Virus record (IMG/VR): IMGVR_UViG_3300008012_000212
Location: 1-23,122 of that record
Direction: 5' to 3' (one strand)
From: a virus
DNA length: 23,122 bases
Part shown: piece after piece, positions 2,448 to 21,816 of the stretch
Numbering within the stretch: position 1 is the stretch's first letter
Layout of the letters: each line of letters begins with the position of its first letter
Notes under the pieces: model-generated
What the model was told of the DNA's origin: nothing
What the model saw: the letters and a program-made list of their open reading frames with translations, nothing else
Databases searched by the model: none
Position numbers and translations under genes: made by a program

Positions 2448-4594
2448 TGTTCAAATAGCTGTTCTTGTACTTCGATAAACTTCTCTACAGTTTCCTGTGG
2501 TATTGTTTGTGTTTCGTAAATTAATTTAAGTAATTCTTCAACATCATCCACATTACTATCAATACCTGATTCACTTTCTCTTCTTAATTGTTCGTAACGT
2601 TCTTTAGGAAAGAAAGCATAAAACGGAACTAAATCTTTTAAAGCTTCTTTATTAGTGATGGGAATATTAAGAACCTTACCCTGTTTTCTCTTAATTTCTA
2701 TTTGTCCTTGACGGATGCTGTCTAAATTCAAACGACTACTACCCATCAAATAAACCATTAATTTTCGTTCCGCTGTTTTTCTTTGTTTATCGTTTTTAGT
2801 GTTGTCTTGAATTATATCGTACTGATCTTCTAAGCTATCGAATAAACTTAAATCAAAATGACGAGCTATGACTTTGGCTTTTTTAGTATCTTTACTTCTC
2901 AGTGCTTTTTCTAAATCAAAATAATTATAGGTAGGTGAAAAGAAATAACTCTGACCCTGACCTAATTTTACTTCAGGATCAATGAAAGATTTTTTATCAT
3001 CTATATTTTTAGGGGATTCAGCTTCAACTTCACTAACCTGTTTACTGGCTCTGTACTTTTTGAATATATCTTTAGCACCTTGATTAAATTCTTCTTGAAA
3101 CTTCTTTTCAAAATCTAGTAAGTCCAAAACACCTTGACCCTGTAAATCGCTAGTTCTAACAAGTTCGTCGTTTACATTCTTATACTGCCCTGTCGATATT
3201 TCGTTTCTTTTTACTAACAACTTTCTCTTTAAATCAGTTTCCAACTCAGCAATTTCATCCGATAAAACTTTTGGCATATTTATTGAGATTCGAGTGCCTT
3301 CTCTTTTAGCGAATCCCTCTGATAGTAGTAAAGAGTTTTTGTCGTCTTCTAAGTTTTTACTGAAGTCTATTTGAGGAAACATATTTCTCCTCATATTTAA
3401 AAAGAAAACACCACGCTCTTCTCCTATCTCTAAAGCACCTAATGTAGTTTGTATAGCCTTAACGCCTTCAGTTATAACAATAGGATTGCCAGTCTCTAAT
3501 AATTTCTGACGGAAAGCGTTCTCAAGTTCATCCTGACTTCTTATAGGAGCATCAACTCCCTCTATAGTAGCTTGTCCGTTTGATTTGAAAGCCATACCAG
3601 CAGCCACTAATTCAGCTTGTATGTTATATAAAATGTCAGTGGCTTCTTTTTTATCGCTAAGTATATTCTGTTCTTCAATCTTATCAATCTCCTCCATCAA
3701 TACAGCTTTACGATTAGTATAAGCACCGTATATCGGGTCCTCCCCTTTTCGTTTAGCACCTACTCCAAATCTTGCTGTGCCTACTTTAAAATGCCCTGAT
3801 GCGTGTTCTAAAAAGTTTTTAGCTGCTTGTGGGTTTTTTACTGCTAATTGCCGTGTAACACGTTCAATCATTTCTACCTGTTTATCAGCAGTCATCCAGT
3901 TTGTTTCTGCCCACACTTCGTCTAGTCTTGTAGCGTATCTAGGATCATCTAAATCTAAAGTACCGTCACTAAATAAACGGGCTTCTATATCAGCTTGTAC
4001 TTGTTTTTCTGCCTCTTTGTTTTTACGTGTATCGTACTCTAAAACATATTTATCTATTGTTGGTCTAACTACTTCGTCAAAGCCTTCTTTAACAAATACA
4101 TCTGTAGCTAACTGCCCGTATTGTCCTTCAAAATCTTGTCTTATTATACCTGCTATAGCTTCCGTGCTAACATCTTCGTCTCCGGCTTCTGGATTATTTA
4201 AACGAAAATGTAGTTGCTTTTGGTACTCATCGTGCAGACGTGCTCCTAAAGCTCTCTTCTTTCTTTTCCAATTTAATGGCGAAGCTAGAAACGGTATACT
4301 GCCTTTACGTACTTGTTTGTCTAATTCAGCTTCTGTTTTATTTAAATCTGCTTTTAATTGTTCAGGCGACATCCGAGCAACTTCTTCTTGGAACTGCTCA
4401 AACTCTATATCAGCTACTCGTGTGTACTGCTGTAACACTGGATTAACTTGACCCAACGCATCAGCTAAGTCCATCAACTTGTTACGTCCTGCTCGTTGAA
4501 CTTGTATCCCGTACTGACCAGCCCGTTGAATGGTGGGTGATATACCGGGAACAGCGTCCCCTAATCCTTGTACTTGTACTCGTTCTCTAGCCAT
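2444..4594 (-). CDS. Internal virion protein, T7 gp15-like
   Basis: The 716-residue product is close in length to T7 gp15 (747) and sits exactly where gp15 belongs, between the gp14-like and gp16-like genes. In T7, gp15 is an inner-core protein ejected into the cell, where it forms part of the periplasmic tunnel. The sequence is strongly charged and mostly helical, with no signal peptide or membrane segment. The N-terminal 60 residues (MARERVQVQGLGDAVPGISP, then repeated QRAG units) look like a flexible arm. An AAGAAG sequence lies about six bases before the ATG, which follows the gp14-like stop by one base. The stop overlaps the gp16-like ATG (ATGA). Assignment rests on synteny, length and composition, as I see no catalytic motif. 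Confidence 0.8.
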   Translation of the reverse strand: MARERVQVQGLGDAVPGISPTIQRAGQYGIQVQRAGRNKLMDLADALGQVNPVLQQYTRVADIEFEQFQEEVARMSPEQLKADLNKTEAELDKQVRKGSIPFLASPLNWKRKKRALGARLHDEYQKQLHFRLNNPEAGDEDVSTEAIAGIIRQDFEGQYGQLATDVFVKEGFDEVVRPTIDKYVLEYDTRKNKEAEKQVQADIEARLFSDGTLDLDDPRYATRLDEVWAETNWMTADKQVEMIERVTRQLAVKNPQAAKNFLEHASGHFKVGTARFGVGAKRKGEDPIYGAYTNRKAVLMEEIDKIEEQNILSDKKEATDILYNIQAELVAAGMAFKSNGQATIEGVDAPIRSQDELENAFRQKLLETGNPIVITEGVKAIQTTLGALEIGEERGVFFLNMRRNMFPQIDFSKNLEDDKNSLLLSEGFAKREGTRISINMPKVLSDEIAELETDLKRKLLVKRNEISTGQYKNVNDELVRTSDLQGQGVLDLLDFEKKFQEEFNQGAKDIFKKYRASKQVSEVEAESPKNIDDKKSFIDPEVKLGQGQSYFFSPTYNYFDLEKALRSKDTKKAKVIARHFDLSLFDSLEDQYDIIQDNTKNDKQRKTAERKLMVYLMGSSRLNLDSIRQGQIEIKRKQGKVLNIPITNKEALKDLVPFYAFFPKERYEQLRRESESGIDSNVDDVEELLKLIYETQTIPQETVEKFIEVQEQLFEQ

Positions 4595-12130: not shown

Positions 12131-13696
12131 TTATTCCTCGGTAGGTTGTTGTTGTTGACTTGCCATGTACTGCTCCTGTGCAGCATTGATAGCGGGTGCT
12201 ACGGCAGGGCTTCCCAACTTCATCATCATCTCTTGTTGTTGTTGCATCTGCATAGCTTGTTGAATCTCTTCTTCCGTCTTAATCAGTCCCTCAGTTTCTA
12301 TACCAAGAGCAGTAGCACGACGCTTGAAGTAATCAGATACGTTAAGATATTGATTGACTGCTTGTGGTCCCACTACCTGATTAGCACCAGCAAGAAACAT
12401 ATCAAGACGATTAAGATCATTACCACGACCCAATGCTTCCACACCAGTGACGATGGTAGGTTTAACAATATCCTTGGGTAGCTTAGGTAGTCGTTTCTCT
12501 TTGGACATACGATCCATTAAACGAGTGACGATAGGCAGTTGCATCTCCTGAGCTAAGAGAGAGTAGAGACCACCGAGGGCAGCTTCAAGCTCTTGGCTTA
12601 ACATCCGTATCTCCTCGGCAGTCACTCTCTCGGCATCTCTAACAACCCCCGATGTCAGTAGAAAGGCTTGGCTCAATCGATCTGTTATACCAGCCATTGT
12701 AGTCTGTGCTGTCCGTAGATCGTTGAACTTATTAAGTTGTAAGACGGAGACGTCTCCTTCGCTGCCCTGCACAATCGCACCGTTAGGAGCTTCAGCCAGT
12801 GTTCTTGCCCGTGTCGTTCCGTTAGGATTGACCATAAACAATACCTTAGCTGCTGCTGCACTGGCTTCTACGATTGATTTAGTTAACGACTCCAACGAGC
12901 GGATGTCTCCGATATACTCTTCAACAAACCCACGTCCGTAGTCTTCTCCGTCTATTTGAGTGTAACGCAAGGGTAGCCACGGGGACTTTTCTAATGGATA
13001 ACGTCCTACGCTTTCCTCGATAAGCATTCCCTTTACGTCTTGATACACTTTAAATTCATCATCTTCACGCACGATAGCAGTGTACAAATCACACGTGTTT
13101 TCTTTCTCTTGTCTGTACACTTCTTCCCGTACCGACTCAGGTAACATCATAGGTGCTACTGTTTCTTTGACAGCTATGTGTGTAACGTTACCCATTGGAT
13201 CACGCTTAACAACGTAACGATCCAACTTAAACGTTCTCATACCTCCTTCATCCGGGAGATATAACAAAGCGTTACCCGTGATTAACAAGTTCTTGAGTGC
13301 TTGGAATATACCGTTCCTGAAGTTCTGTACTTCTACTTCCTGTGATACACTACGCTCTACATCAGCTAAAGCTTTCTCTAAGTCTGTACGTAGTTGCTCT
13401 GCGCCCTCTTGTCCCAGTTCAGCTTTGGCTTTGTCTAGTTCGTATCTATCTATAACAAGACGAAAGAACGGAGCGTTCGGTGGTAGTAAAGCTAACAATA
13501 ACTTAGACGATAGATTCAGAACACCACGTGCTCCGATGCCTTGATACGGTGTGTAGTATTTAGTGGCGTAGTTGTGCCCGTCAGGAGGCAGTACATAGGG
13601 TAGGGTTAACTCTGACGATTGACGTCCTCTGTCTAAAAACGACCACCGCTGATTTTCTAACGAATGGTATAACCCTTGTGCTGTCTCCTGTTCCAT
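12131..13696 (-). CDS. Portal (head-tail connector), T7 gp8-like
   Basis: The 521-residue product is the length of T7 gp8 (536). It carries the gp8-type N-terminus (QRWSFLDRGRQSSELTLPY), the GARGVLNLSSKLLLALLPPN segment, and later YGRGFVEEYIGDIRSLESL and the RVTAEEIRMLSQELE helix. These are well known in podovirus portals. The last 60 residues are rich in Gln and Met, probably a disordered crown end. The dodecameric portal is the vertex for packaging and tail attachment. No Shine-Dalgarno is evident; the ATG lies three bases after the 74-residue gene. The first codons, encoding ETAQGLYH, are repeated at 15184-15225 in a fossil copy. Confidence 0.96.
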   Translation of the reverse strand: MEQETAQGLYHSLENQRWSFLDRGRQSSELTLPYVLPPDGHNYATKYYTPYQGIGARGVLNLSSKLLLALLPPNAPFFRLVIDRYELDKAKAELGQEGAEQLRTDLEKALADVERSVSQEVEVQNFRNGIFQALKNLLITGNALLYLPDEGGMRTFKLDRYVVKRDPMGNVTHIAVKETVAPMMLPESVREEVYRQEKENTCDLYTAIVREDDEFKVYQDVKGMLIEESVGRYPLEKSPWLPLRYTQIDGEDYGRGFVEEYIGDIRSLESLTKSIVEASAAAAKVLFMVNPNGTTRARTLAEAPNGAIVQGSEGDVSVLQLNKFNDLRTAQTTMAGITDRLSQAFLLTSGVVRDAERVTAEEIRMLSQELEAALGGLYSLLAQEMQLPIVTRLMDRMSKEKRLPKLPKDIVKPTIVTGVEALGRGNDLNRLDMFLAGANQVVGPQAVNQYLNVSDYFKRRATALGIETEGLIKTEEEIQQAMQMQQQQEMMMKLGSPAVAPAINAAQEQYMASQQQQPTEE

Positions 13697-13699
13697 AAC

Positions 13700-13924
13700 T
13701 TAGATAGGATCGTCAGACCACTCTTCGTTAGCTAGTATAGTCAACATCTCAGAACGATCATAGGTAGTCTTACCTGCGAGAAAGCTAGGCGTGCCGCCTT
13801 CAAACTTAACAAAGGTCTGTGTACCAGCTAGATTGTATCTAAGCGTATCAGCACTTGTCTCAAGCACTTGGTTAAAATCTACGGAACTAACTTCCGAAGC
13901 GTCGATGATTACGTAGTTTCTCAT
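13700..13924 (-). CDS. 74-residue partner protein, copy 2
   Basis: The product (MRNYVIIDASEVSSVDFNQV...) is about two-thirds identical to the protein at 15228-15455, including IIDASEVSSVDF and ETSADTLRY. I know similar short proteins beside fibre genes of other marine phages, without an assigned function. The pattern looks like a small alpha/beta fold. The C-terminus (EMLTILANEEWSDD) is a helix ending in a Trp-acidic tail. It follows the LamG gene by six bases and precedes the portal by three. Pairing with a LamG gene in both copies suggests a fibre assembly partner or accessory virion protein; this is inference. No Shine-Dalgarno is seen. Confidence 0.8.
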   Translation of the reverse strand: MRNYVIIDASEVSSVDFNQVLETSADTLRYNLAGTQTFVKFEGGTPSFLAGKTTYDRSEMLTILANEEWSDDPI

Positions 13925-13930
13925 GATTTA

Positions 13931-14647
13931 TTAAGTTGGTACATCAGTTGAGAAGGTTGGCCCGTTAGTTAGTGTTCCGTTATTCCCTCCACTTCCTTGG
14001 TCAGTGATTGTTGTGCCTGTACCTCCGTCGTTATCTCCCATTCTCCACCAATGTACGGGACTGAGTGATGAAAGGTCAGCAGGCGCTCCGCTGTTGTAAA
14101 TAGCAGTTATATCCGTACTTGTTAACGCGCTAGACCAAAACGCTACTTCATCGGCTAGTCCGTTCATTTCGTAGCCTGAGAAAACTTGTGACGAACCGAC
14201 CCAAAAGTTTTGACCCGATGAAGATGGCATGGATGCGGAACGAGTACCCGTGTCAGAAAGACTTCCGTCGACGTATAGTGTGCAGTTATTTGTACCGTTT
14301 CCGTCCTTGATAACTGCGATGTGATAATATTGCCCCGTTGATAAAGTTGAACCGCTTGTCAAAACTTCGGGGGAACCTAAATACACTCCTAGCGACCCGC
14401 CTGACTTCAAGTAAAAAGAAAATCGATCCGCTGAGTCTATTCCCCCTGTTAAAAACAAAGTGTTATCTGCGTCAAATTTGAACCAACCTGAAAGCGTAAA
14501 AGAGTCTGTGCTATTCATTGCCGTGACAGTACCGCAATCTATATAATCATCTGAGCCATCAAGGTCTACAGAGTAGGTGTTACTGAATGGAGGTACAGTA
14601 GGACTAGCGATTATTCCGCTACCAATGCTAGGAAGTATAAGTGCCAT
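13931..14647 (-). CDS. LamG (concanavalin A-like) domain protein, copy 2
   Basis: The 238-residue product has a LamG/Laminin_G_3 type jelly roll at about residues 24-195. Its marks are VDLDGSDDYIDCG, SFTLSGWFKF, YYHIAVIKDG, CTLYVDGSL, NFWVGSSQVFSGYEMNGLADEVAFW and the closing HWWRMGD. Such domains bind sugars or proteins and are used as adhesion parts of phage virions. The C-terminus is Gly/Thr/Asn-rich. It is a paralogue of 15452-16285, most alike in the last third (VFSGY, DEVAxW, HWWRMGD, GGTGTT, GTLTNG), but lacks the 40-residue N-terminal extension found there. TAAGAG before the ATG comes from the end of the preceding gene. I infer a receptor-binding or decoration role. Confidence 0.85.
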   Translation of the reverse strand: MALILPSIGSGIIASPTVPPFSNTYSVDLDGSDDYIDCGTVTAMNSTDSFTLSGWFKFDADNTLFLTGGIDSADRFSFYLKSGGSLGVYLGSPEVLTSGSTLSTGQYYHIAVIKDGNGTNNCTLYVDGSLSDTGTRSASMPSSSGQNFWVGSSQVFSGYEMNGLADEVAFWSSALTSTDITAIYNSGAPADLSSLSPVHWWRMGDNDGGTGTTITDQGSGGNNGTLTNGPTFSTDVPT

Positions 14648-14650
14648 CTC

Positions 14651-15178
14651 TTAGGACGCTGTGTCCCCAGCTAGAACAAAGGTGTCAGCAGCATAAGCAA
14701 GTAAACTAGCAACGCCGTACTGAGCATTGATCTTAGTGTGCGACTGTCTGTTGTTAATAGTAGTCGAAGAAGCGCTAAAGCTTACTTGTCCTGCTCCCTT
14801 TTGTACGAACGAACAATTGAATCCTACTCCTAATCCACTCGGTACTGTGACTGTTACTGCACTAGCATTATCAAGTACTACGACCTTGCCATTGTCACTA
14901 GATAGAAGCGTGTATGTAGTTCCTGTCTGATCGTTGATGGATGCGTCAAATCCTAGTATCGCTTCTCCGTCGAAGTTGCCGTCTGTTAAATCTCCTGCTG
15001 ATACTGTCACCGCTCCCGTCTGTCCTGCCACCGATTGCACAGGTGCTAGGGTCATCAGGTTAGTAGCGGTTACTTTCTTAGTTGTGGGTGTGCCTGATAC
15101 GTCATCCACGATAGCCATTATATCGGCTCCGGCTGGACTCGGCAGGTCTGTAAGTTCTGTAATTTTTTTATTAGCCAT
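14651..15178 (-). CDS. Fibre-like virion protein
   Basis: The 175-residue product opens with MANKKITELTDLPSPAGADI, the KITELT start common in marine phage fibre and neck appendage proteins. This is followed by a VSGTPTTKKVTATNL segment and a QTGAVTVSAGDLTD repeat-like linker, as in collar or fibre adaptors. The C-terminal half (residues about 88-170) is a beta-rich domain with the pattern SSDNGKVVVLDNASAVTVTVP...CSFVQKGAGQVSF, known from many fibre tips. No enzyme motif is present. It sits between the two LamG/small-protein copies, with an AT-rich leader (AAAAATC) and no Shine-Dalgarno. The likely role is a virion appendage, possibly an adaptor; the receptor is unknown. Confidence 0.8.
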   Translation of the reverse strand: MANKKITELTDLPSPAGADIMAIVDDVSGTPTTKKVTATNLMTLAPVQSVAGQTGAVTVSAGDLTDGNFDGEAILGFDASINDQTGTTYTLLSSDNGKVVVLDNASAVTVTVPSGLGVGFNCSFVQKGAGQVSFSASSTTINNRQSHTKINAQYGVASLLAYAADTFVLAGDTAS

Positions 15179-15183
15179 GATTT

Positions 15184-15225
15184 TTAAATGTTAAGATGAT
15201 ATAACCCTTGTGCTGTTTCGTGCAT
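15184..15225 (-). pseudogene. Fossil of the portal gene start left by duplication
   Basis: This 13-codon frame reads MHETAQGLYHLNI then stop. The functional portal begins MEQETAQGLYHSLEN. Eight residues (ETAQGLYH) are identical, as are most of the underlying bases (ACAGCACAAGGGTTATA is shared). The bases just upstream are also alike at both places (GACGA, then ATCTAA and ATG). It lies directly after the first 75-residue gene, just as the true portal follows the second. It is too short to be functional and marks a duplication junction. Confidence 0.85.
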
Positions 15226-15227
15226 AT

Positions 15228-15455
15228 TTAGATAATTTCGTCGCTCGTCCACTCAGGCCCACTCAAGATGCTTAGTATCTCTTCTTGATCGTACTCCGTC
15301 TTGCCGAGCAGAAAGAATGGTTGTGTGCCTTCGTACTTAACGAAAGTCTTAGTGCCGTCCAATGAATAACGAAGTGTGTCGGCAGATGTTTCAGCTACTT
15401 GGTCGAAGTCTACCGAGCTAACTTCCGATGCGTCTATTATGCAGTATGTTCTCAT
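15228..15455 (-). CDS. 75-residue partner protein, copy 1
   Basis: The product (MRTYCIIDASEVSSVDFDQV...) is a paralogue of 13700-13924. By my count about 51 of 74 aligned positions are identical, with no internal gaps and one extra C-terminal residue. Its ATG overlaps the stop of the LamG gene (ATGA), a tight coupling that supports joint expression. The family is unassigned as far as I know. The conserved core is IIDASEVSSVDF, ETSADTLRY and TFVKxEG, and the C-terminus is acidic and ends with Trp and Ile. Function is not shown by the sequence. The context suggests a fibre chaperone or small virion component. Confidence 0.8.
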   Translation of the reverse strand: MRTYCIIDASEVSSVDFDQVAETSADTLRYSLDGTKTFVKYEGTQPFFLLGKTEYDQEEILSILSGPEWTSDEII

Positions 15456-16288: not shown

Positions 16289-17074
16289 TTATACAGTTGA
16301 ATCGTTGTTATATAAAAACCATCTATCACCATCCCACACATACAACTTGTCGGTGTCTTTGGCGTGTACGATGGTGTAGTCGTCTGCTCCTGAGTCGGAG
16401 ATAAAGTCAGACTCGTTGTCAAATACTTGAGCGGTTGGGAATGTTAAGGTGCTGTCGTGAATTGTGTCTAATACAGTGCCACTGACATTCGCTTGATTAT
16501 GGTCATTAGCATCTAAAGTAGCAGTAACTCCTGATCCTAAAGTAGCTGAATTTTGAAGGTTGAAAGTTATAACAGTATCTGAGCCTGTGCTTAAAGTCTG
16601 ACCCGTAGCTACTGTAAGTACAAGTGTACCTGTTGACTGCGTCCAAGAACCAGCACTACCAAATACAGACGCTCCCGCCCCACTTAAAGTTAAGGAACCG
16701 TCTACTGTTTGTGAGCTTGTTAATCCAGCAAGTGTGATAGAACCGCCAGCAGAAATATCAATACCGGGCTGTACCGTAAATGTAATTGTATTCGTCCCGC
16801 TTGTTTGAGAATTAGAATCACTCAATGTTGCCGTCTCAAAAGAAGAAGGTGGTACAGCACCACTAGCTGGTTCAAATTGTAATATGTCTCCGTTCTCTGC
16901 TGTTAATGGTTCAGCTAGTTCTGTCGTTAACGCTCCGTCTATAGAGGGAGTAACACCGCTGTCTGCATCAGCATCAAAGCCGTACAACTCACCAAACGCA
17001 GGACGTAGGAATCTGTTAGGCAGAAGCTGTGTACCGCTAGGTGGACGTGCGTCCGATGTAAACGTCAGTCCCAT
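16289..17074 (-). CDS. Beta-sandwich virion protein of unknown role
   Basis: The 261-residue product has a Pro-rich N-terminus (MGLTFTSDARPPSGTQLLPN) and a Ser/Thr/Gly-rich middle (about residues 80-205) that looks like an Ig-like beta sandwich (NTITFTV, GGSITLAGLTSS, GSWTQSTGTLVLTVA, DTVITFNL). The C-terminal segment ends DTDKLYVWDGDRWFLYNND, a motif frequent at the ends of phage tail proteins and related to the SDGTNWQVYD segment in the neighbouring LamG protein. The start overlaps the previous stop by one base (TAATG). No signal peptide or enzyme motif is seen. I take it as a tail or fibre component, but no specific function can be given. Confidence 0.7.
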   Translation of the reverse strand: MGLTFTSDARPPSGTQLLPNRFLRPAFGELYGFDADADSGVTPSIDGALTTELAEPLTAENGDILQFEPASGAVPPSSFETATLSDSNSQTSGTNTITFTVQPGIDISAGGSITLAGLTSSQTVDGSLTLSGAGASVFGSAGSWTQSTGTLVLTVATGQTLSTGSDTVITFNLQNSATLGSGVTATLDANDHNQANVSGTVLDTIHDSTLTFPTAQVFDNESDFISDSGADDYTIVHAKDTDKLYVWDGDRWFLYNNDSTV

Positions 17075-18908: not shown

Positions 18909-19380
18909 AATATAGGCTCCAGTTGTCCTGCCATTTCTTGTACTTCGATGTACTGTCAGGTGCTGGGTTTAGTTTTACGGTTTTAGATTGTATTTCATTT
19001 CTTGGTATCATCCACCACGTGTCTTCAGGCACAACATATATACCAACAACATCGATGTCGTGTGACATATAGTCTTTATTCTCACAACCAACGGATGTGA
19101 CACAGCTATAACAATTCTTAGCCGGAGTAGCCCGTGTGTTGGTTGCTTTGATTTGTACCTTTAGAATACCTGCTGGACACGTGACGATCATATCCCACGG
19201 CATTGGTGTTACAGGTAGGTGTGGTTCAAAGTTCCGTTCCAAACATTCAGTGATAAACTTTTGTTCAGCTATTGCTCCTGTTCGCTGGGATGATGAGGAC
19301 GGCATAGGTAGGTTGAGGTCAACAGTATCGTATAATTCTGCAACCTTCAAGTGCCAATCGTATTCAAGCTCAACCTCCAT
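18901..19380 (-). CDS. PD-(D/E)XK nuclease, probable Holliday junction/endonuclease I role
   Basis: The 159-residue product contains the nuclease core: RTGAIAEQKFITECLERNFEPHLP (Glu39 on the first helix), PMPWDMIV (Asp63) and LKVQIKAT (Gln76, Lys78). This matches the pattern of group PDDEXK_5 and archaeal-resolvase-like nucleases. The C-terminal part (IDVVGIYVVPEDTWWMIPRNEI) is also usual for that family. In T7 the endonuclease I (gp3) cuts branched DNA and host DNA, and this gene may fill that place although its order differs. A perfect AAGGAGG lies six bases before the ATG, within the end of the HNH gene (11-base overlap). The stop lies inside the exonuclease start region. Confidence 0.8.
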   Translation of the reverse strand: MEVELEYDWHLKVAELYDTVDLNLPMPSSSSQRTGAIAEQKFITECLERNFEPHLPVTPMPWDMIVTCPAGILKVQIKATNTRATPAKNCYSCVTSVGCENKDYMSHDIDVVGIYVVPEDTWWMIPRNEIQSKTVKLNPAPDSTSKYKKWQDNWSLYYE

Positions 19381-19816
19381 TGTAACCTCCTTGTGTTAAC
19401 CATTTATACATTGTCCTGAGAATCTCAGGATTGTCTTTTACTTTCCCCATCGCTGAATTACAAGGGTTACACAACAAACCTCTAACCTTTCCAGTTAAAT
19501 GGCAGTGATCTACATCTAGATTCCTACCGTTGGTTGTATAATCCTTCCCGCATATACCGCATTTGCTGTCTTGCTCCGAAAGCATTCTATCATAGTCTTC
19601 AGGCGTGATTTTATATCTTTGCCATAAATGAGATTTACGTTGGCGTCGCTTTTGAGCCGGGGGGTTTTTGTCTTTACTTTTGTAGTAACGCTTACGCTTA
19701 CATGGCATACAAGTGTGTCTTCTTCCATCGCCTCCGGCCTCTCTAGATTTCTTACACTTCTCCATCTCCTCTAGAGGATAGTATTTTCCACACTTTTTAC
19801 ATAACTTGGTTTCCAT
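19370..19816 (-). CDS. Endonuclease VII-like HNH nuclease
   Basis: The 148-residue product has a first zinc-like knuckle (Cys6, Cys9, Cys36, Cys39), a basic linker and then the recombination endonuclease VII core: WQRYKITPEDYDRMLSEQDSKCGICG (Cys86, Cys89), LDVDHCHLTGKVRGLLCNPCN (Asp103, His104, Cys116, Cys119, Asn120). The family includes the T4 gp49 Holliday resolvase, but many members are stand-alone homing nucleases in phage genomes. The start at 19816 (TGATG overlap with the polymerase stop) is preferred. A GTG at 19834 in the same frame has GGAGAG very close upstream and would add six residues. It sits between polymerase and PD-(D/E)XK genes, where T7 has none. Confidence 0.85.
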   Translation of the reverse strand: METKLCKKCGKYYPLEEMEKCKKSREAGGDGRRHTCMPCKRKRYYKSKDKNPPAQKRRQRKSHLWQRYKITPEDYDRMLSEQDSKCGICGKDYTTNGRNLDVDHCHLTGKVRGLLCNPCNSAMGKVKDNPEILRTMYKWLTQGGYNGG

Positions 19817-21816
19817 CAGTGTGTCTGTGCCCACGTCTCTCCGATCTTTGCTTCCCCGTCCAACATGACATTTAGTTTTAACTCTTTACCTGCTGCTCTT
19901 ATCGCATTGACTGCAAGCTCACAGAACACACTTGCTTTGTCAGGTTGTACCTCTGCTTGGATCTCGTCGTGGACGTTAGCAACAAAGCTGTACTCTCTAC
20001 CGTGTTGCCACTTCAAAGTGATTAGACGTTTAAACAATTCAATCAAAGCTACCTTCATACACACAGCACCTGCTGATTGTAACAACATATTCAACGCAGA
20101 GTGTGGCGAACGAACGGGAAGTATGCGATAATCTAACCCTATCAGCTTACCACCTTTTAAGACTTTGTATTCGATTGCTTCTTGTAGTTTAGCTAACGCA
20201 GGTATGTTTCTATAGAATCTTCTCTTTAACTCCTGTCCTTCCGCAGCTCCGCCCCCTACGATTTCCCCAATTAGTTGATCTCCGGCACCATACAAAAGAG
20301 CGTATATAAATGTCTTAGCTTGTGAACGTTCCGCTAATCCAGCAGCCTTTTGGTTCCTTGTATGAACATCTCCTTCGATAACTTCTCTAGCGTATTCACC
20401 GCCGTCATAGAAAGCTAGGTAATGTGCTAACATCCGTAGTTCTAAACCACTAGCATCACATCCAACTAACTTGTATCCATCTCCAGCCTTAAACAGATCA
20501 CGACACTCTTCTCCATAGTCCATGCCAACTGCTGGAACTTGTGCTAGGTTGGGAAAGCTGTGAGTACATCTACCTGTTACCGCACCATTAGTGTTTACTC
20601 TACCGTGTATTCGTCCGTTCTTCATCAGTTTTAACCACGCTACATTACCTTCAGCTAACTGACCAAGACGTTTCTGCACTGTCAGGTATTCAAGAAGTAA
20701 CGATGCAAACGGATGGTTTATTCTTTCGAGGGTAGCACCATCCATCTTTATCGTCTTACCGTCAGGTTGCACAGGTATCTCTATTCCTAAATCCTTAAAC
20801 CTTTGTTTTATTTCGTGGCGACTACCGGGATTAAACGGTACTATCTTAGTTTTGTTAGCTAACTTGACTGCATCTTTAACTAACGTCTGCTTCAAGTTAC
20901 GACTCTTTAGTTGCTTCTTTAGTTCCGTCTTGGTTGGTGCTGAGATTATTTCGAGTCCGTCGTTCCATTCAATCTCTAACGACCAACCACTCGGCGTCTT
21001 CATCTCCTCTTGCTTGGACGGAAACTCTTTCTGTAGTTTATCCAGAAGATCAGCACGAACACTAGCAAGTTTCATCTCCAACTTCTCTGCTTTCTCGATG
21101 TCGAACGCGAACCCTTGCTTCTCTTGTAGCCTCATCAGGTACGCAAACCAGTGCTCGTTCTCTAACATCTTAACATTAGGATTCTGCTGCATGAGATAGT
21201 CATATAGGATTTGTGTTACGATTGTGTCACGCTCGCAGTATTTCCTCATGTCCTCGTTGTAACTGTCAAACGCACCTTCTTCCTCACCGTAGGATAGCTT
21301 AGTTAGCTTGCTTAATCGTAATCCCCAAGCTCTCAACGATTGACTACCCGGACCAAAGTCTTCATTAAACTTCTTCTCAACTTTAGCGTACAGGTATTCT
21401 TTAACACATCTGTCGTAAGCGGTTGATCCTTTCTTAAATCCCTTTTGTTCCGCTAACATGTGCGCTGCTGGTCTATGTGGTTCACACAGTTTAGTTCTTT
21501 TGATTATATCTCTATCTCTAATGTCAGGGTGTATGCACTTAGCCATGACCATCGTGTCCAATACTTTAACAAGCGGTGGATGGAAGCTGTACAGTTTACC
21601 AAGAGCAGGTATGTCAAAACCAAGGACGTTGTGTCCGACGATATGATCTGCTTTAGCTAACTCATTTAGTCCGTTTCGTATGCCAGCACCGTGATATGTA
21701 ATCATCTTGGGTGTGGTAGGATCGTAGATAGATAGACAGTGAACCGTGTCAAGATCTGTCAAGTTCGACCAGTCCTCTATCTTATTCGTTTCTATATCAA
21801 AGAATAGTGTTTTCAT
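19816..21816 (-). CDS. DNA polymerase I family, T7 gp5-like
   Basis: The 666-residue product has a 3'-5' exonuclease (FFDIETN with Asp7 and Glu9; GHNVLGFD with Asp68; Tyr193...Asp197) and a family A polymerase domain. Motif A is VGCDASGLELRMLAH (Asp454), motif B is AKTFIYALLYGAG (Lys501, Tyr505) and motif C is NVHDEIQ (His616, Asp617). T7 gp5 has the same runs (NGAVTGR, SFPNLAQ, KTFIY, SPHAALNTLLQSAGA). It is 38 residues shorter than gp5, mostly in the region between residues 265 and 330, where T7 carries the thioredoxin-binding loop, so dependence on thioredoxin is uncertain. Tyr505 occupies the position of E. coli Phe762. The ATG overlaps the previous stop (ATGA), and an AGGAG lies 16 bases upstream. 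Confidence 0.97.
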   Translation of the reverse strand: MKTLFFDIETNKIEDWSNLTDLDTVHCLSIYDPTTPKMITYHGAGIRNGLNELAKADHIVGHNVLGFDIPALGKLYSFHPPLVKVLDTMVMAKCIHPDIRDRDIIKRTKLCEPHRPAAHMLAEQKGFKKGSTAYDRCVKEYLYAKVEKKFNEDFGPGSQSLRAWGLRLSKLTKLSYGEEEGAFDSYNEDMRKYCERDTIVTQILYDYLMQQNPNVKMLENEHWFAYLMRLQEKQGFAFDIEKAEKLEMKLASVRADLLDKLQKEFPSKQEEMKTPSGWSLEIEWNDGLEIISAPTKTELKKQLKSRNLKQTLVKDAVKLANKTKIVPFNPGSRHEIKQRFKDLGIEIPVQPDGKTIKMDGATLERINHPFASLLLEYLTVQKRLGQLAEGNVAWLKLMKNGRIHGRVNTNGAVTGRCTHSFPNLAQVPAVGMDYGEECRDLFKAGDGYKLVGCDASGLELRMLAHYLAFYDGGEYAREVIEGDVHTRNQKAAGLAERSQAKTFIYALLYGAGDQLIGEIVGGGAAEGQELKRRFYRNIPALAKLQEAIEYKVLKGGKLIGLDYRILPVRSPHSALNMLLQSAGAVCMKVALIELFKRLITLKWQHGREYSFVANVHDEIQAEVQPDKASVFCELAVNAIRAAGKELKLNVMLDGEAKIGETWAQTH

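Follow-up and report, generated by a model that had tools for sequence, protein, structure and literature searches.

The 13-codon frame at 15225-15184 on the minus strand of the window (the whole stretch of viral DNA analysed here, 23,122 nt) is most probably a recombination scar, formed at the right-hand end of a cassette of about 1.7 kb that came from another phage; we assign this interpretation a probability of roughly 0.83. Among other findings, it is supported by the empty site in close relatives and by the relationship of the imported part to a different lineage (L085, L034, L070). At least five further phage lineages likewise carry a remnant of the portal start at the end of an adhesin cassette. 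The exchange of adhesin modules is already known; what is new is a directional scar that recurs.

Gene order in the adhesin region

Among named records, Ayaqvirus S45C18 (AP013544) and roseophage CRP-403 (OR420752), both Autographiviridae, are closest to the window, which originates from a marine T7-like phage. In the direction of transcription the region comprises a gene fusing an anchor with an adhesin part (17074-16289), LamG1, the small gene small1, the scar, the MANKKITEL fibre gene, LamG2, the second small gene small2 and the portal gene, which is followed by scaffold-like and capsid genes. The features are as follows.

16866..17074, minus strand: resident anchor gene of about 70 codons, present as a complete gene of 68-71 aa in L008, L019, L017 and L020
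16289..16865, minus strand: presumably imported part of the fused gene, 84-85% identical in nucleotides to stand-alone genes in L085 and L046
15452..16285, minus strand: LamG1, presumably imported adhesin with a Laminin_G_3 domain (PF13385, E=2.8e-18)
15228..15455, minus strand: small1, presumably imported copy of the 75-aa small gene, judged by its nucleotide identity of 89-91% to copies in L085, L052 and L070 and by the tree
15184..15225, minus strand: scar, fossil frame MHETAQGLYHLNI with its stop codon; 15225-15196 derived from a portal gene, 15195-15184 from a leader
14651..15178, minus strand: MANKKITEL, resident fibre/anchor gene of 175 aa, 91% identical in nucleotides to L019
13931..14647, minus strand: LamG2, resident adhesin with a Laminin_G_3 domain (PF13385, E=2.1e-24)
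13700..13924, minus strand: small2, resident small gene directly before the portal gene, 91% identical in nucleotides to L007 and grouping with its own lineage
12131..13696, minus strand: intact portal (head-tail connector) gene, product starting MEQETAQGLYH (PF12236, E=2.7e-86; phrog_449, E=4.8e-176)

The N-terminal part of the 261-aa product encoded by the fused gene (16289-17074) corresponds to the resident anchor gene, which in L008, L019, L017 and L020 ends with LQFEPA or LQFEPS before the stop codon. The remaining part (16289-16865) is absent in these relatives. Outside the adhesin region, a putative HNH endonuclease-type frame with Cys and His motifs was detected at 19370-19834, adjoining the polymerase gene.

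Similarity of the 13-codon frame to the portal start

The DNA of the scar reads ATG CAC GAA ACA GCA CAA GGG TTA TAT CAT CTT AAC ATT TAA on the minus strand. In the comparison with the true portal start of the window (13690-13664) 24 of 27 bases match (89% identical), and the local score of 39 was not reached by any of 2000 shuffles, the maximum of which was 24. Chance similarity is therefore ruled out, and the frame can be regarded as a remnant of the 5' end of a portal gene, as the earlier note on this DNA had claimed. Its further claim that the likeness extends upstream of the ATG was confirmed by one local alignment that spans the whole small gene together with the portal start (score 75, about 265 bases); the similarity beyond the ETAQGLYH codons is hence well above chance.

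The statement that the frame copies the true portal start of this genome holds for the match in DNA and protein in general, but not for the very first residues, since the scar begins with MHETAQG and the portal of the window with MEQETAQG. MHETAQG is the commonest portal start in the loci of the relatives, with 159 occurrences versus 11 of MEQETAQG. Matches of MHETAQG in L170, L179, L205 and L250 represent unrelated frames and were left out.

The portal-derived part of the scar amounts to 30 bases, and its final codons (LNI and the stop) represent leader sequence rather than portal sequence. The corresponding sequence of the window, CTTAACATTTAAAAATC, resembles the leader ahead of an internal MANKKITEL fibre gene in L020, CTTAATATTTAAAAATC, and differs from the leader of the closest empty sites, ATAATACTC.

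Two further contigs from this population, L005 (100% identical over 6333 nt) and L006 (99.9% over 5679 nt), likewise contain the scar, and thus it does not represent an error of one assembly. L176, in which the portal gene runs off the end of the contig, was not counted as carrying a scar.

Empty sites in close relatives

In the near relatives L008, L019 and L020, the portal regions of which are 93-96% identical to that of the window, and in L017 (91%), the MANKKITEL gene follows immediately on the position corresponding to 16866. In L008 the sequence passes from the base matching 16866 to the MANKKITEL gene region two bases further on (locus 2404 to 2406). L019 contains a single module consisting of MANKKITEL (175 aa), a LamG gene, the small gene and the portal gene, with the MANKKITEL gene following straight after the anchor gene. 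According to these empty sites the stretch 16865-15187 (about 1.68 kb) is extra in the window. The scar forms its right-hand end, and the left junction lies at 16866/16865, with GAACCAGC on one side and TAGTGG on the other.

L008 and L019 hence represent single-module near relatives devoid of the 13-codon frame, in agreement with the earlier suggestion that the frame marks the arrival of a second adhesin module. Such relatives are predicted by a duplication and by an insertion alike and do not discriminate between the two.

Import of the cassette versus tandem duplication

The frame had previously been explained by a tandem duplication of LamG, small gene and portal 5' end within one genome, followed by the decay of the second portal gene to 13 codons. 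Although the order of LamG, small gene and portal start does occur twice, with homologous LamG proteins (43% residue identity), small1 and small2 share only 64% identity in DNA. Small1 is considerably closer to portal-linked copies in other phages (89-91% in L085, L052 and L070), while small2 shares 91% with L007 and falls into a supported clade of its own lineage. A tree forcing the two small genes together was rejected by the AU test (delta lnL 143, p-AU 0.00045), and the two copies are thus not each other's closest relatives. Moreover, the insert holds a gene part (16865-16289) that is missing from the resident module and has homologous stand-alone genes in L085 and L046. If a duplication were old enough to account for small genes of 64% identity, neither a scar of 89% identity nor near relatives without the scar would be expected. 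Taking this together, a tandem duplication appears very improbable, and a full second portal gene, which the earlier note assumed to have been lost except for its start, need never have existed at this position.

An import of the cassette is indicated by L085 and L034, which combine the adhesin part and/or the start of LamG1, a small1-like gene and a portal gene starting with MHETAQG at 83-93% identity to the insert. The first 129 nt of LamG1 are 93% identical to L034, whereas the portal region of L034 is only about 77% identical to that of the window. Likewise, the closest relatives of small1 precede intact MHETAQG portal genes in phages that share only about 77% identity with the window in this region. 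In the LamG1 scan full-length relatives were found in the window's own population only and the exact donor genome was not among them; the detection of a donor would be supporting rather than strictly defining for an interpretation as a recombination scar.

In the marine T7-like group the adhesin genes sit between a fixed anchor gene and the portal gene, and their cassettes often finish with the same 75-aa small gene. The recipient would have possessed one resident module consisting of the anchor gene, the MANKKITEL fibre gene, LamG2, small2 and the portal gene. A co-infecting phage equipped with another cassette may have contributed about 1.7 kb, in which the adhesin part was followed by LamG1, small1 and 30 bases from the beginning of a portal gene. 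At 16866 the left end of this cassette would have extended the anchor gene in frame, and at the right end portal codon 10 would have been joined to the resident fibre leader without recognisable homology. Because the small gene abuts the portal gene, a cut just past the end of the small gene would take a few portal codons along, and the scar would thereby record the former place of the cassette before a portal gene. The same kind of event probably occurred independently in other lineages, including phages without a recognisable T7-type portal. Co-infection as the occasion of the transfer and illegitimate joining as the mechanism of the junction both seem plausible, and a change of the host range may be the benefit of the imported cassette.

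The eight portal codons of the scar are too few to name the donor lineage. Its allele GAAACAGCACAAGGGTTATATCAT differs by one or two bases from the alleles of the own lineage and by two bases from the allele usually linked to small1, and these distances allow for a history in two steps. A small1 cassette would initially have displaced small2 before the portal gene of the lineage, and unequal recombination between sister phages would then have joined codon 10 of the lineage portal to the fibre leader of the other sister phage. The small distance to the lineage alleles, the presence of MHETAQG also in the close relatives L016-L020 and the similarity of the scar leader to the internal fibre leader in L020 are consistent with this order of events, but no member of the lineage with small1 directly before the portal gene was identified among the fetched loci. 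We therefore consider such a history rather unlikely. It represents a variant of the import from another phage, as the cassette is still foreign and only the source of the portal codons differs.

Recurrence of portal-start remnants in other lineages

Sorting the small-gene copies of the fetched loci by their downstream gene yielded 173 distinct copies with enough downstream DNA. The portal gene comes next in 85 of them and something else in the other 88, namely another adhesin gene, a small membrane-protein or lipoprotein gene, the gene of the terminase small subunit or others. A portal-start remnant of 20-68 bases was detected behind six of these 88 copies, with the window population counted once (window population 30 bases, L209 about 20, L105/L180 about 23, L218 about 22, L231 about 41 and L234 about 68). 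Each of the other scars rests on one or two metagenomic contigs, and, taken alone, those of L218 and L209 gave weak hits (E 0.21 and 0.45, respectively) in an unguided profile scan. The pattern of L105/L180 is matched by a second contig, L265; in L180 the cassette is located directly before the terminase small subunit gene (phrog_891).

The small genes that accompany four of the five further scars have their nearest relatives before intact portal genes, with SH-aLRT values of 95-99 for the pairs L209-L042, L105-L051, L231-L103/L126 and L218-L076, while the placement of the L234 gene in the tree is weak. The clearest of these cases is L209, the small gene of which is 99.1% identical to the portal-linked copy of L042. 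The sequence adjoining its scar can be read as the final codons of a second small gene (compare L102). In L209 (1770-1997 and downstream) the start codon of the scar is ATA, compared with ATG in the near-identical L042. The frame of this scar is open into the next adhesin gene, and the loss of its start would avoid an N-terminal extension.

Three of the six scar-bearing phages (L231, L218 and L234) do not look T7-like. The 58-kb record of L231 contains UvsX-like and DnaB-like genes, and no T7-type portal (PF12236) was detected in it. The contig of L218 carries a phrog_1328 capsid gene. L234 is collinear with L128, the record of which harbours a phrog_1328 capsid gene and no PF12236 portal. The contigs of L218 and L234 are short (14 and 9 kb), so that the absence of a portal gene is weaker evidence there.

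Two functional explanations for the retained portal start were considered. It might represent an element acting at the DNA level, such as a recombination site, a promoter or a processing site, that is carried along for its function. The portal start indeed recurs behind small genes in six lineages, and each detected remnant stops within 68 bases of the portal ATG. However, the remnants vary in length and are lacking in 82 of the 88 cassettes away from the portal gene. The synonymous diversity of the first portal codons (observed/expected 0.66-0.67, versus 0.31-0.79 across the first 150 codons) did not reveal a depletion as would be expected for a conserved DNA site. A DNA-level function thus has very little probability.

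The scar might alternatively be kept as a short translated frame bridging small1 to the next gene. Its stop codon is located 5 nt before the fibre ATG in the window, and in L105, L218 and L234 the stop lies within -8 to +11 nt of the next ATG. Other frames of the same DNA are often similarly spaced, however, so that this arrangement could not be distinguished from chance, and the scar in L209 has lost its start codon. We therefore regard a bridging role as improbable.

Direction of transfer

In portal-linked copies the gap between the small gene and the portal gene is 0-8 nt, with one exception, L330. In this locus (2901-3228) a truncated small gene of about 24 codons is followed by a complete small gene and the portal gene, which represents a second type of remnant at the same place.

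No reverse scar, that is the remnant of the start of another gene before an intact portal gene, was seen among the portal-linked copies. This asymmetry is only suggestive of a direction, since homologous recombination inside the portal gene could erase remnants on entry. No remnant longer than 68 bases of the 1.56-kb portal gene was found. The apparently short portal gene of L212 was considered as a truncation and rejected, as it seems to be a full gene interrupted by a break in the frame; short portal frames not cut by a contig end were limited to a single contig with a broken frame. The limit of 68 bases would be accounted for equally well by selection for compactness and by a preference for certain breakpoints.

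On a tentative note, the site before the portal gene of marine T7-like phages may act as a distribution hub that exports adhesin cassettes with terminal small genes to unrelated phages, with breakpoints favouring the first 70 bases of the portal gene and the scars serving as a general arrow of host-range gene flow. We hold this extension to be possible, with the balance of the evidence leaning against it.

Relation to known systems

Mosaic phage genomes reportedly arise via relaxed homologous recombination; illegitimate recombination also generates them. The case described here is similar in that new junctions are formed between the genomes of different phages. It differs in that one gene start is the recurrent leftover of the junction in six lineages and in that relatives with an empty site exist.

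Ayaqvirus S45C18 and roseophage CRP-403 share with the window the T7-like order of structural genes and the presence of uncharacterised genes upstream of the portal gene (portal region about 69% identical in nucleotides). Unlike in the window, neither a small gene of this family nor a scar was detected in them.

The distantly related Alteromonas phages A5, V22 and P24 have host recognition modules in common (PMC10579305). As in those modules, an adhesin and its downstream partner gene move together between morphologically distinct marine phages; the partner described there is a fibre chaperone of 195-240 aa (PMC10579305), whereas the 75-aa partner in the present case could not be assigned to a known family. 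A boundary scar does not seem to be described in that study, while in the present case the scar records the earlier place of the cassette (PMC10579305).

Nothing direct was found in the literature on remnant genes at the boundaries of tail-fibre modules. The direction of adhesin exchange between phages usually cannot be read, and a gene-start scar at the end of a cassette distinguishes donor sites from recipients. The portal-start scar can furthermore be searched for in any metagenome as a tag of cassette origin.

The small-gene family

At least 526 relatives of the small gene were found in viral contigs in one scan, of which 80 were kept. Small1 and small2 have neither a Pfam nor a PHROG match, and none of the 107 members of the family matches a PHROG. 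The structure model of the small protein (107 sequences) reached a pLDDT of 91. No fold match in the PDB was obtained at E<=0.001, and the PDB sequence search gave a single hit at E 0.17, which does not count as a match. Ten fold matches at E<=0.001 were retrieved from BFVD, all of them uncharacterised viral proteins without a described function.

The small gene was detected behind fibre or structural genes in T7-like phages, in the 58-kb phage without a T7-type portal, in the group with the phrog_1328 capsid and in the cultured Flavobacterium phage immuto; in the cultured phage S-SKS1 it follows large uncharacterised genes. A unit of an adhesin and its partner is thus shared by unrelated phages, as is characteristic of an exchanged host recognition module. 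Tandem copies (two or more) of the small gene occur in 19 loci, indicating that stacked modules are common.

This widespread 75-aa protein travels with the adhesins of marine phages and may be their assembly partner. Its position behind the fibre genes would be consistent with a role in fibre assembly or as a chaperone, and neither a sequence nor a fold match to the known tail fibre chaperone family (A5 gp9 / V22 gp27 type) was obtained.

Further observations concern individual copies of the family. The small gene at L012:5484-5708 looks like a mosaic, with a start similar to the resident copy and an end similar to small1. Copies were also detected in L266 and L267, contigs binned as genomes of Gammaproteobacteria and Opitutaceae, respectively. 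In L266 the small gene is followed by the portal start MQYETAQSLY, suggesting that it is probably a phage contig.
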